Source: Candidatus Aminicenantota bacterium (GTDB taxonomy: Bacteria > Acidobacteriota > Aminicenantia > Aminicenantales > UBA4085). Taken from it: 43,739 bases of DNA. Below the pieces are notes generated by a model that was given only the letters and a program-made list of their open reading frames with translations, did no database searches and was not told where the DNA came from. The stretch spans positions 1 through 43,739 of the forward strand of contig JALHTW010000151.1 of the NCBI GenBank assembly GCA_022866045.1. Reading direction: 5' to 3'. Shown in pieces: positions 15,187 to 40,088 of this stretch; positions within the stretch are counted from its first letter, which is position 1; each line of letters starts with the position of its first letter. The position numbers were made by a program, and so were the translations under genes.

Positions 15187-16104
15187 TCAGAAATGATGGC
15201 GGCCCTTGAACGCCTCAAGCGTGTTCCGCATCAGCATGGCGATGGTCAACGGCCCCACGCCACCCGGGGAGGGAGTCAGCCAGCCCGCCTTATCAATGAC
15301 CCGGGGCTGGACATCGCCAGCCCAAGTAAAGCCTTTATCCTGGATCTCTTTCTCACGTTTAGGGTCGTCGCCGAAGAGTTCCCGAACCACGGCCTTATCG
15401 CTCACGGCATTGCTCCCGACGTCGATGACCAGCGCGCCTTCCTTGACAAACTCGGGGCCGATGAAGCCGGGCTTGCCCATGGCGGCGATGAGAATATCGG
15501 CGCGGGCGGCGACCTGGGCGAGGTTCTTGGTCTTACTGTGGCAGATCGTCACCGTGCCGTTTTCATTGGTGATCATTGCCGCCAGCGGCTTGCCGACGAT
15601 GAGGCTCCGGCCGATGACCACAACATCCTTGCCTTCGATCCCCACGCCGGCGGATTTAATGAGCTCGAGGACACCCAGCGGCGTGCAGGCCCGCAGGCCG
15701 GGCAGGTTCTGGAGGAGGAGACCCAGGCTATAGGGATGAATGCCGTCGACGTCCTTTTCCGGATTGATCCACGAGATGACCTCATGAGCAGCGAAGCCCT
15801 TAGGAAGCGGAAGCTGGACGAGGATGCCATCCACCTTGTCCTCGTTGTTCAAATCCTCGATCTTGGCCTTGAGCTGATCCCGGGCCGTGTTCGCCGCCAG
15901 GTAAAGGACCTGGCCGTAGAGACCCAGACTCTGGCAGGCTTTTTCCTTCATCCGCAGATAGCTCTGGGAAGCGGGGTTGTCGCCGACAAGGATCCCGACA
16001 AGCCCCGGGACTTTGCCGAAGGTTTGCTGGCACAGGGCAACTTCATTTTTGACCTGATCTCGAATCTTGTCCGCGACAGGTTTACCTTCAAGCCACGTGC
16101 CCAT
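15187..16104 (-). CDS. folD: Methylene-THF dehydrogenase / methenyl-THF cyclohydrolase
   Basis: A 305-residue FolD interconverting methylene-, methenyl- and formyl-tetrahydrofolate in one-carbon metabolism. The start is ATG at 16104 with GGAGGAG close upstream; a longer frame to 16164 crosses the promoter. The catalytic Lys lies in SYLRMKEKA, and DGILVQLPLPKGF, VIGRSLIVGKPLAAMI and PGGVGPLTIAMLMRNT are family signatures for substrate and NAD(P) binding. The promoter abuts the MITE-like element at 16168. Confidence 0.97.
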   Translation of the reverse strand: MGTWLEGKPVADKIRDQVKNEVALCQQTFGKVPGLVGILVGDNPASQSYLRMKEKACQSLGLYGQVLYLAANTARDQLKAKIEDLNNEDKVDGILVQLPLPKGFAAHEVISWINPEKDVDGIHPYSLGLLLQNLPGLRACTPLGVLELIKSAGVGIEGKDVVVIGRSLIVGKPLAAMITNENGTVTICHSKTKNLAQVAARADILIAAMGKPGFIGPEFVKEGALVIDVGSNAVSDKAVVRELFGDDPKREKEIQDKGFTWAGDVQPRVIDKAGWLTPSPGGVGPLTIAMLMRNTLEAFKGRHHF

Positions 16105-16135: not shown

Positions 16136-16164
16136 ATTATACTGGGACAATATTTGGATGACAA
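16136..16164 (-). promoter_or_regulatory. Promoter of folD
   Basis: Minus-strand TTGTCA (16164-16159) and TATAAT (16141-16136) with exactly 17 bp between them, 32 bp ahead of the ATG. The MITE-like palindrome begins only 4 bp upstream of the -35. Confidence 0.75.
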
Positions 16165-16167
16165 GAT

Positions 16168-16357
16168 TATTAACCTTTATTATTCATAAATTGCGTCGTT
16201 TCCTCGAGAAGAGAATTCGCAGATGGCGCCGAATTCAAAACAAGGGGGGCACGATCCCAAATTCCGGAGAATCTGGGTCATGTCCCCGAATTCGGCGCCC
16301 CTCTGCAAATTCAGGACCGGGAGAGATAACGTCATTCATGAATAATTCAGGTTAATA
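16168..16357. mobile_element. MITE-like 190-bp long palindrome
   Basis: The ends TATTAACCT and AGGTTAATA are inverted copies. Going inward, ATTATTCAT matches ATGAATAAT, and the arms meet again strongly at GGCGCCGAATTC (16225-16236) against GAATTCGGCGCC (16288-16299). The interior GGGGGCACGATCCC also pairs with GGGTCATGTCCCC, closing on ATTC-CGGA-GAAT near 16264. The whole unit can fold as one long hairpin. It carries no gene. The TA at each end could be a 2-bp target duplication, as with IS630/mariner-type MITEs, or just the outer base pairs. The non-coding 16105-16475 stretch otherwise holds the folD promoter and a small hairpin. Confidence 0.65.
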
Positions 16358-16371
16358 GATTGTTAAAAATT

Positions 16372-16390
16372 GGAGCGCCAGCGGCGCTCC
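16372..16390. repeat. Perfect 8-bp hairpin followed by CCGAGCCCTTTTT
   Basis: GGAGCGCC (16372-16379) and GGCGCTCC (16383-16390) pair around AGC. The following CCGAGCCC and T-run look terminator-like on the plus strand, but no plus-strand gene precedes it. CTCCCCGAGCCC here is identical to 9209-9220. Confidence 0.5.
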
Positions 16391-37344: not shown

Positions 37345-37353
37345 GAAAAAATT

Positions 37354-37393
37354 GGGGGCACATCACTTTTTATGAAAAAAGTGATGTGCCCCC
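37354..37393. terminator. Strong bidirectional terminator after polA
   Basis: GGGGGCACATCAC (37354-37366) pairs perfectly with GTGATGTGCCCCC (37381-37393), and inner T/A runs extend the stem. On the minus strand it is followed by AATTTTTT, and on the plus strand by ATCTTTTTT. It lies 7 bp after the polA stop codon and should isolate polA from the MgtE-N/NRAMP operon. Confidence 0.85.
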
Positions 37394-37400
37394 ATCTTTT

Positions 37401-40088
37401 TTACTTCGCCTCGGCCCAGTTGGGGCCCCAGCCGAGCGAGACCTTGAGGGGGACCTTGAACTCACAGACGTTTTCCATCCTGTCGCGGACGAGGCGCTCG
37501 ACCTTCGCTTTCTCTTTTTCGGGGACCTCGAAGACGAGCTCGTCGTGGACCTGGAGGATCATCCGCGCGGCGAGCTTTTGTTGCCGGAGCTCGCGCCAGA
37601 TGTCGATCATCGCTTTTTTCATCAGGTCAGCGGCCGTGCCCTGGATGGGCATGTTGAGGGCCATGCGGCGGCCGGCCTGCTGGGCGACCTTGTCGGACTG
37701 CCGGAGTTCCGGGACCTGGCGCTTCCGCCCGAAAAGCGTTCCAGAATAGCCGCGGGTCTTCGCTTCTTCGACTTTCTTCTCCAGGAATTCTTTGACCTTC
37801 GGATATTTGGCGTAGTACCGGTCGATGAACTCCTGGGCTTCCGAGTTCGATGTCCGAAGCTCCTTAGCCAGCGAAAACGCGGACGTGCCGTAGATGATGC
37901 TGAAGTTGATGATCTTGGCTTTCCGCCGCTGCTCGTCCTTGAAGAGCGATGATGCCGGGCCGAAGACGCGGTTGGCGGTCTCCTCATGGATGTCCCGGTC
38001 TTTCACGAACGTCTCGATGAGCGCCGGGTCTTCAGACATGTGGGCCAGCACGCGAAGCTCGATCTGCGAATAATCGGCGCCAAGGAAGAGATGGCCTTTC
38101 TCGGGAATGAATGCCTTCCTGAACCTCTTTCCCCATTCGCCGCGGGCAGGGATATTCTGCAAATTGGGATCGGAGCTTGACAGCCTTCCCGTCGAGGCCA
38201 CCGTCTGGTTGTAAGACGTATGAATGCGGCCCGAAGCGGGGTCGGCGAGCTCGGTCAGGGCATCGGCATAAGTTGATTTGAATTTTGCGAGCTGTCGGTA
38301 TTCGAGCACGTGCTGGGCCAGGGGATGGAGCAGGGCCAGCTCTTCGAGGACGTCCATGGACGTCGAAAAACCTTTGGTCGCCTTGGTCTTTTTTGACGCG
38401 GGAAGCTGGAGCTTGTGAAAAAGGATCTGGGCCAGCTGCTGGGGGGAATTGATATTGAATTCCGTCCCGCTCGCTTCGAAAATCTTCTTCTCCAGGCGCG
38501 AAAGCTCCGTCTCAAGCTCCGCGGAAAGTTTTTTCAAGGCCCCGGCATCGACTTTGACACCGGCCATTTCCATGCTGGCGAGGATCTCGATCAGAGGCTG
38601 CTCGATCTCGCGGTAGAGAGTGTCGAGCTTTTCGGCCTCGATTTTCGGCCAGAGCAGGCGGCTGAGCTCAAGGGCGTAATCGGTGTCCTGACAGGCATAG
38701 GGAATTACTTTTTCCACGGCGACGTGGTTCATCGTCACTTCGTTCTTGCCTTTGCCGACGACCTCGTTGTAGGGGATTGCGGGCGCCTGGAGATAGACCA
38801 TGGCCAGCCTGTCCAGGTTGTGCTTTCCCCAGTTCGGCTCTAAAAGATATGAAAGGACCATGGTGTCGAGATCGATGCCCCGAAGATGTAAACCCTCGTG
38901 TTCAAAGACGATGAAATCATATTTGATGTTCTGGCCGATCTTTTTGATTCTTGGGTCTTCAAGAATGTCCCTGAGGATTCCGAAAGCCGTTTCCATCGAA
39001 AGCTGCTTCGGGGCGCCCGGATAATCATGCCTGAGCGGGAGATAATAGGCTTCTCCTGGTTCTATGGAAAAAGACATCCCGACCAGATGGGCCTGGGTGG
39101 GGAAAATATTATCCGTTTCCGTATCCAGCGAGACCATTCCCGCCTTTTTGATCCGTGAAACGAGCTCGGCGAGCTCCCGCTCCGTAAAAATTGCCTTATA
39201 TTTCCGCTCGGCTTTTTTCGGCTTTTTCATGTAATCGGCCAGCAACGAGGTGAATTCGAGCTCTTGAAAAAGTCTGGCCGCCTCCGCATAATCGGGCTCG
39301 ACGACTTCGAAGCGCTTTGGGTCGAACGCTACGTCCATCTTTTTTTCGATGATGACGAGCTTGCGGCTCATTTCGAGCTTGTCCATGTTCTGCTCGATCT
39401 TCTCTTTCACCCTCGGGTTCTTGATCTTTCCCAGGTTTTTGAGGAGGTTGTCGAGCGATCCGAACTCTTCGATAAGGTTTTTGGACGTCTTTTCCCCGAT
39501 TCCGGGCACGCCGGGGATGTTGTCCGACGGATCCCCCCAGAGGGATAGCACGTCCACGACCTGGGAGGGCGAGACACCGAAGAATTCTTTCACCTTGGCC
39601 TCATCCAGGGTGATCTCCTTGACGGGATTGAAGACGGCGGTCGATTTGTCGACAAGCTGGAGAAGGTCTTTGTCCGTCGTGACGATGACGGTCAGGAATT
39701 TCTTGGCCGCCGCCTTCCTGGCCAGGCTGCCCAGGACGTCGTCCGCCTCGTACTTTTCGTAGACGAAGACTGGAATCCGCAGGGCGCCGATGACCTCTTT
39801 GAGCTTCGGGATCTGTTTGATCAGGTCCTCGGGCATAGGCTTGCGGTGAGCTTTATAGTCTTTATAGATTTCGTGCCTAAACTTGGGGCCGGGGGCGTCG
39901 AACACAATCCCGAGATATTCAGGCTTCTCCCGGTCCATTATCTTACGCAGCGTGCTGATAAACCCAAAAATGGCATTCGTCGGGAATCCCTGGGAGGTCG
40001 AAAGGCTTTGGATGGCGTAATACGACCGGTAGAGCAACGAGTTCCCATCGATGAGATAGACTTTTTTCTCGCTCATGGCGAATTTCAT
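37401..40088 (-). CDS. polA: DNA polymerase I
   Basis: An 895-residue Pol I with all three activities. The 5'-3' exonuclease domain (about 5-290) begins VYLIDGNSLLYRSYYAI and has VDVLSLWGDPSDNIPG. The 3'-5' proofreading domain keeps its acidic residues (SLDTETDN, GQNIKYD, YACQDTDYA), so proofreading is probably active. The polymerase domain has DYSQIELRVLAHMS, the O-helix RRKAKIINFSIIYG and QVHDELVFEV. The start is either ATG at 40088 or the internal ATG at 40076 (MSEKKVYLIDG); no ribosome site decides. If the candidate promoter overlapping 40088 is right, 40076 is the start. Confidence 0.96.
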   Translation of the reverse strand: MKFAMSEKKVYLIDGNSLLYRSYYAIQSLSTSQGFPTNAIFGFISTLRKIMDREKPEYLGIVFDAPGPKFRHEIYKDYKAHRKPMPEDLIKQIPKLKEVIGALRIPVFVYEKYEADDVLGSLARKAAAKKFLTVIVTTDKDLLQLVDKSTAVFNPVKEITLDEAKVKEFFGVSPSQVVDVLSLWGDPSDNIPGVPGIGEKTSKNLIEEFGSLDNLLKNLGKIKNPRVKEKIEQNMDKLEMSRKLVIIEKKMDVAFDPKRFEVVEPDYAEAARLFQELEFTSLLADYMKKPKKAERKYKAIFTERELAELVSRIKKAGMVSLDTETDNIFPTQAHLVGMSFSIEPGEAYYLPLRHDYPGAPKQLSMETAFGILRDILEDPRIKKIGQNIKYDFIVFEHEGLHLRGIDLDTMVLSYLLEPNWGKHNLDRLAMVYLQAPAIPYNEVVGKGKNEVTMNHVAVEKVIPYACQDTDYALELSRLLWPKIEAEKLDTLYREIEQPLIEILASMEMAGVKVDAGALKKLSAELETELSRLEKKIFEASGTEFNINSPQQLAQILFHKLQLPASKKTKATKGFSTSMDVLEELALLHPLAQHVLEYRQLAKFKSTYADALTELADPASGRIHTSYNQTVASTGRLSSSDPNLQNIPARGEWGKRFRKAFIPEKGHLFLGADYSQIELRVLAHMSEDPALIETFVKDRDIHEETANRVFGPASSLFKDEQRRKAKIINFSIIYGTSAFSLAKELRTSNSEAQEFIDRYYAKYPKVKEFLEKKVEEAKTRGYSGTLFGRKRQVPELRQSDKVAQQAGRRMALNMPIQGTAADLMKKAMIDIWRELRQQKLAARMILQVHDELVFEVPEKEKAKVERLVRDRMENVCEFKVPLKVSLGWGPNWAEAK

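Follow-up and report, generated by a model that had tools for sequence, protein, structure and literature searches.

What is the long palindrome beside folD in this Candidatus Aminicenantota genome, and does it belong to the gene or to a mobile element? In the 43,739-nt stretch of DNA analysed here (the window), positions 16168-16357 fold end to end into one hairpin, between folD (minus strand, start at 16104) and a divergent gene for a TPR lipoprotein. An earlier note on this DNA had described a 190-bp, near-complete, non-coding palindrome and proposed a miniature transposable element (MITE), a REP/RAYT-associated element, or a structured regulatory RNA or DNA, with an IS630- or TnpA_REP-type transposase as the partner to look for. 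The palindrome is real and far beyond chance: folding of 16140-16380 gave z scores of -6.1 for DNA and -7.7 for RNA, and 200 dinucleotide shuffles all folded less well. Its matched tips, GGCGCCGAATTC arms and G-rich centre are all visible in the sequence, and the only open reading frame across it is a 65-aa chance ORF. The length needs correcting, as the mobile unit is 178 bp (Table 1); the 190 bp overran its ends, since TTAA reads the same on both strands and a direct duplication of it mimics an inverted repeat. We conclude that the element very probably belongs to the IS1380 family as a non-autonomous DNA transposon, or type II MITE. Short and without a transposase gene, it carries terminal inverted repeats, CCTGAATTATTCATRAATT, at both ends.

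Table 1. Features of the element and its surroundings (window coordinates).
Feature	Position	Strand	Evidence or remark
Complete 178-bp MITE copy	16174..16351	+	End alignment of 37 copies; own genome holds at least 40
Left target site duplication TTAA, 4 bp	16170..16173	.	Identical to right one
Right target site duplication TTAA, 4 bp	16352..16355	.	Copy-end alignment
Left terminal inverted repeat CCTTTATTATTCATAAATTG (family consensus CCTGAATTATTCATAAATTG)	16174..16193	+	Matches IS1380 ends
Right terminal inverted repeat, minus-strand reading CCTGAATTATTCATGAATG	16333..16351	-	
Subterminal GTTTCCT	16198..16204	+	Tip distance equals that in IS1380 element of Aminicenantes HyVt-101
Inner arm GCAGATGGCGCCGAATTC	16219..16236	+	Pairs with 16288-16306 in DNA and RNA folds
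Inner arm GAATTCGGCGCCCCTCTGC	16288..16306	+	Pairs with 16219-16236 in DNA and RNA folds
Core hairpin GGGGGGCACGATCCC...GGGTCATGTCCCC	16244..16287	+	Repeat found outside MITE too
folD, neighbour outside element	15187..16104	-	FolD models, best E 3e-96
folD promoter-like site TTGTCA-17-TATAAT	16136..16164	-	Upstream end 5 bp from target duplication

The element is far from unique. At least 40 copies, with 87-96% identity to the folD copy, are spread over many contigs of the same genome, and truncated copies occur besides; the dispersed copies number about forty to sixty. The copy numbers from the searches are minima; a palindrome is matched on both strands, which gives two search rows per copy. 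The true number is probably higher, since several copies lie at contig ends. With up to two mismatches allowed, the tip pattern CTGAATTATTCATRAATT matched the genome 106 times, and the reversed control pattern never. The consensus from 33 full copies is 178 bp long; copies diverge from it by a mean of 4.7% (8.7% pairwise), a level that gives no hint of very recent movement. Two copies at contig ends (L010, at the start of C75 of the own genome, G000, and L013, at the end of C354) have a common inverted flank, GGCGGCCTAGGCGCCGC..., also seen near L069, which may be another dispersed repeat or an assembly break.

The copies also reveal how the element meets its target. Among the 37 copies with both ends available for boundary alignment, the element starts with (usually C)CTGAA and finishes with TTCAG(A/G). 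A perfect 4-bp duplication brackets 22 of them, whereas shuffled pairing of the ends gave 5.1 on average and never more than 13 in 10,000 trials; bases farther out match at background level only. The duplication has the consensus YTAR, with TTAA, CTAA, TTAG, CTAT, TTTA, TAAA and similar sequences as examples. The TA target sites suggested earlier thus give way to a 4-bp YTAR-type site, and no aligned copy with a duplication of exactly TA was seen. A survey of piggyBac elements that used IS1380 as an outgroup reports that the duplication is usually TTAA, the variants being TTAG, TAAA and CTAA (PMC10813416), a spectrum close to that of the MITE. IS1247, a published IS1380 member, is listed with a 5-bp duplication (PMC3281130).

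The ends of the element point to a particular transposase family. A genome of the same order (G055) holds a complete IS1380-family element (L126), whose 446-aa transposase matches NCBIfam NF033539 (E 2e-119) and is 100% identical to that of Candidatus Aminicenantes bacterium HyVt-101 (L264). This transposase gene is bounded by the tips CCTGAATAATTCATAAAAAAAGCTGTTTCCT and CCTGATTTATTCATAAATTG (in short, CCTGAATAATTCATAAA/CCTGATTTATTCATAAATT). The left end of the MITE, CCTGAATTATTCATAAATTGCGTCGTTTCCT, agrees with the IS1380 end at 24 of 31 positions, with GTTTCCT equally spaced, and the best of 3000 shuffles of that region agreed at 21. Similar tips occur in IS1380 elements of KSB1, Desulfobacterales, Bacteroidetes, Chlorobiaceae, Oxalobacteraceae, Nitrosomonadaceae and others, and five of the nine judgeable elements have a perfect 4-bp duplication (CTAA, CTAG, CTAT, CTAG and CTAC, judged by eye); that of the HyVt-101 element is imperfect (TAAA/TTTA). 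Because tips and GTTTCCT spacing match an IS1380 element of the same order, and tips and duplication are common to IS1380 elements elsewhere, we assign the MITE to the IS1380 type. The partners proposed earlier were wrong: the ends and the 4-bp duplication are those of IS1380, not of IS630/Tc1 (TA) or REP/RAYT.

Shortened IS1380 elements also occur elsewhere in this order. Two further genomes (G028 and G031) contain internally deleted forms (L194, L207 and L211), about 230-360 bp long, that keep IS1380 ends and an N-terminal piece of the transposase; from these we take it that the IS1380 family spawns MITEs. A genome of the window's own family (G011) holds the same IS1380 subgroup as a fragment (L206), and most other IS1380 loci of the order (e.g., L127 and L129) show no such tips within the margins searched. 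In three genomes of family f5 (G037, e.g., L099 and L067; G045; G047), many other short elements have CTGNATTATTCA tips and differing interiors, with 153 tip matches in G037; these probably represent additional MITE families of this type. A 1.1-kb tip pair in G045 (L097), considered as an autonomous partner, encloses a corrinoid-protein gene and no transposase.

Similarity to IS1380 is confined to the ends, as the MITE interior (about 110 bp) shows none. The exact left end found no match in viral contigs or in 84,980 species genomes, a collection that possibly omits this genome's own record, so no known IS has exactly such a subterminal sequence; a plasmid collection likewise gave no match to the element. 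Neither PF13701 nor a protein search detected an IS1380 transposase in the own genome, although this is a draft of 365 contigs, 94% complete, and repeats break contigs in it. We therefore infer both mobilisation in trans and its chemistry, with a partner that may have been lost or may be missing from the draft assembly. An IS1380 transposase supplied in trans would bind the CCTGAATTATTCATRAATT ends, excise or copy the element and insert it where a 4-bp YTAR site has been cut with a stagger, so that a 4-bp direct duplication results. Copies have built up mainly between genes, and the folD copy inserted 5 bp upstream of the -35 hexamer with both flanking genes left intact.

Sites without the element were found, at folD in relatives and for another insertion. 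The folD/TPR pair occurs there with gaps of 164 bp (L248), 183 bp (L250) and 168 bp (L262); the gap here is 368 bp, or about 186 bp when the element and one TTAA are subtracted. The conserved TATAAT of folD and a TTGTCA hexamer are still present here, with the insertion just upstream. The earlier note correctly placed the palindrome beside a promoter-like site, but put it 4 bp from the -35, whereas 5 bp separate that hexamer from the target duplication upstream. Elsewhere in the genome, one copy (L037) lies in the loop of another repeat; when its flanks are spliced together around a single duplication, they align to an uninterrupted counterpart (L231) at 79% over 99 nt with no disruption at the junction. 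Near the folD copy, between the MITE and the TPR gene, the minus strand at window positions 16372-16390 carries a terminator-like GC-rich stem followed by AATTTTTAAC.

Most insertions appear to spare genes. A simple ORF model, used rather than curated genes, could be applied to 26 copies with enough flank: 25 fall outside ORFs, and the remaining one covers no more than the initial 19 nt of an ORF taken from its longest start. In at least five copies (L012, L019, L021, L023 and L034), the left duplication provides the terminal TAA of a frame that stays open for more than 300 codons, and L007 is a weaker sixth case. This follows from the target sequence itself: YTAR contains TAA/TAG, so insertions can hit a stop codon while the upstream gene stays intact. 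Insertions on the TAA of YTAR would thus be harmless, keeping the upstream frame whole.

The centre of the element has a wider distribution than its ends. The MITE core is a 44-nt GGGGACA hairpin, GGGGACACGATCCCAAATTCCGGAGAATTTGGGTCATGTCCCC. Its occurrences in the own genome are mostly inside MITEs; among 39 genomes of relatives, 16 have a match, and in most of these (e.g., L041) the core stands without the shell. A variant of the core is found in a second palindromic family of roughly 140 bp with the ends CCCAAAATTGCCGATAG...CTATCGGCAATTTTGGG (L319, L320 and L321, on C135, C138 and C344 of the own genome), and L069 is a chimera of the MITE and this CCCAAAATTGCCGATAG-ended family. The core is inverted in three MITE copies (L074, L077 and L088) and lost from another (L095); recombination between shared arms would suffice for the inverted cores and chimeras.

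Several other palindromes were seen alongside these. A third family of about 130 bp has the form GACCGTCGATCACTTTC...GAAAGTGATCGACGGTC around GGGGGACACAATACCCTGTCCC (L219, L222, L223 and L234), and a truncated MITE (L091) terminates in half of such a GACCGTCGATCACTTTC...GAAAGTGATCGACGGTC repeat. Three MITEs (L005, L036 and L037) sit within the loops of GGGGACAC-AATACCC hairpins as nested palindromes, of which L231 is the uninterrupted form. Within the window, positions 37346-37401 form a near-perfect 26-bp inverted repeat with GGGGGCACATCAC, in a style like that of the GGGGACA hairpins. On a rather unlikely reading, the palindromes would form a nested system in which the core (GGGGACAYGAT-CC...GG-TCATGTCCCC) is traded among repeat families with different ends, namely IS1380-type MITEs, other palindromes and solo hairpins, with MITEs landing in the loops of further GGGGACA hairpins.

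How much of this could be explained otherwise? The core might itself be the active part, spreading by insertion into, or recombination with, several kinds of palindrome, and the IS1380-like ends might be a passive shell. The solo cores in relatives, the palindromes with other ends that share the core, the inverted-core MITEs and the chimera are all in keeping with this, yet target duplications flank the IS1380 ends, which means that the outer unit, at least, was moved by its ends, and no duplication was identified around the core; we regard this reading as improbable. Movement of a REP/REPIN-type palindrome by a RAYT (Y1 transposase) is much less likely still, even though the core (GGGGACA...TGTCCCC) is REP-like and can stand alone, and three Y1_Tnp genes are present in the genome. 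REPINs lack the inverted IS-type tips and the 4-bp target duplication that the element has, and a full core-like hairpin lies within about 1.5 kb at only one of 30 Y1_Tnp loci, with the own-genome locus among those that have none. An IS630/Tc1-type MITE inserted at TA, to which the AT-rich tips with an adjoining TA might point, is the least credible explanation, given tips that match IS1380 and the YTAR-type duplication.

A conserved regulatory hairpin of folD, acting as RNA or DNA, would account for the extreme foldback and the position 5 bp from the -35. This too is very unlikely, as the same element lies beside dozens of unrelated genes and has no Rfam match that would suggest a riboswitch, and its absence between folD and its neighbour in relatives means that it is not conserved folD regulation. 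Over the 33 full copies, substitutions affect 4.5% of paired and 5.9% of unpaired positions, and 142 single changes break pairs while only five double changes compensate; rates this similar, with so few compensations, do not suggest selection for a folded RNA. An IS1380-type MITE is thus the reading we retain: the earlier guess of a MITE was right, and what the note gave as its refutation, a single copy with a site conserved at folD, is not what the genome and its relatives show. An IS630 or REP/RAYT partner and a regulatory role found no support.

As an ordinary kind of mobile DNA, the element resembles several known systems. With IS1380 insertion sequences (NF033539, PF13701) it shares terminal inverted repeats, a 4-bp YTAR-type duplication and, in the case of the Aminicenantes element, the GTTTCCT spacing, but it has no transposase gene, an unrelated interior and a length of 178 bp against about 1.6 kb. 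Bacterial type II MITEs such as Chunjie of Geobacter uraniireducens and QMITE2 of Coxiella are likewise small, non-coding hairpins in tens of copies, mostly intergenic, with terminal inverted repeats, direct duplications and IS similarity confined to the ends (PMC10969869); the element here differs in its IS1380 ends and in a core common to other palindromic repeats. MITEPye1 of Paracoccus yeei is comparable in its IS-related inverted repeats, direct duplications, long stem-loop and intergenic position, but has IS1182 ends and only 1-3 copies per chromosome (PMC11578231). REP/REPIN elements with RAYTs resemble the core alone, as the whole element has IS tips and a target duplication and no RAYT association was found. 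No previous account of an IS1380-type MITE turned up in the literature searched, which comprised sources other than subscription journals.

The palindrome beside folD is thereby explained, and a repeat with many copies in an uncultured Aminicenantes lineage is linked to a transposase family. Insertion at stop codons may help such elements to accumulate. The core common to several repeat families is a concrete, testable puzzle, and an unknown activity that moves or converts it would, if true, be new.
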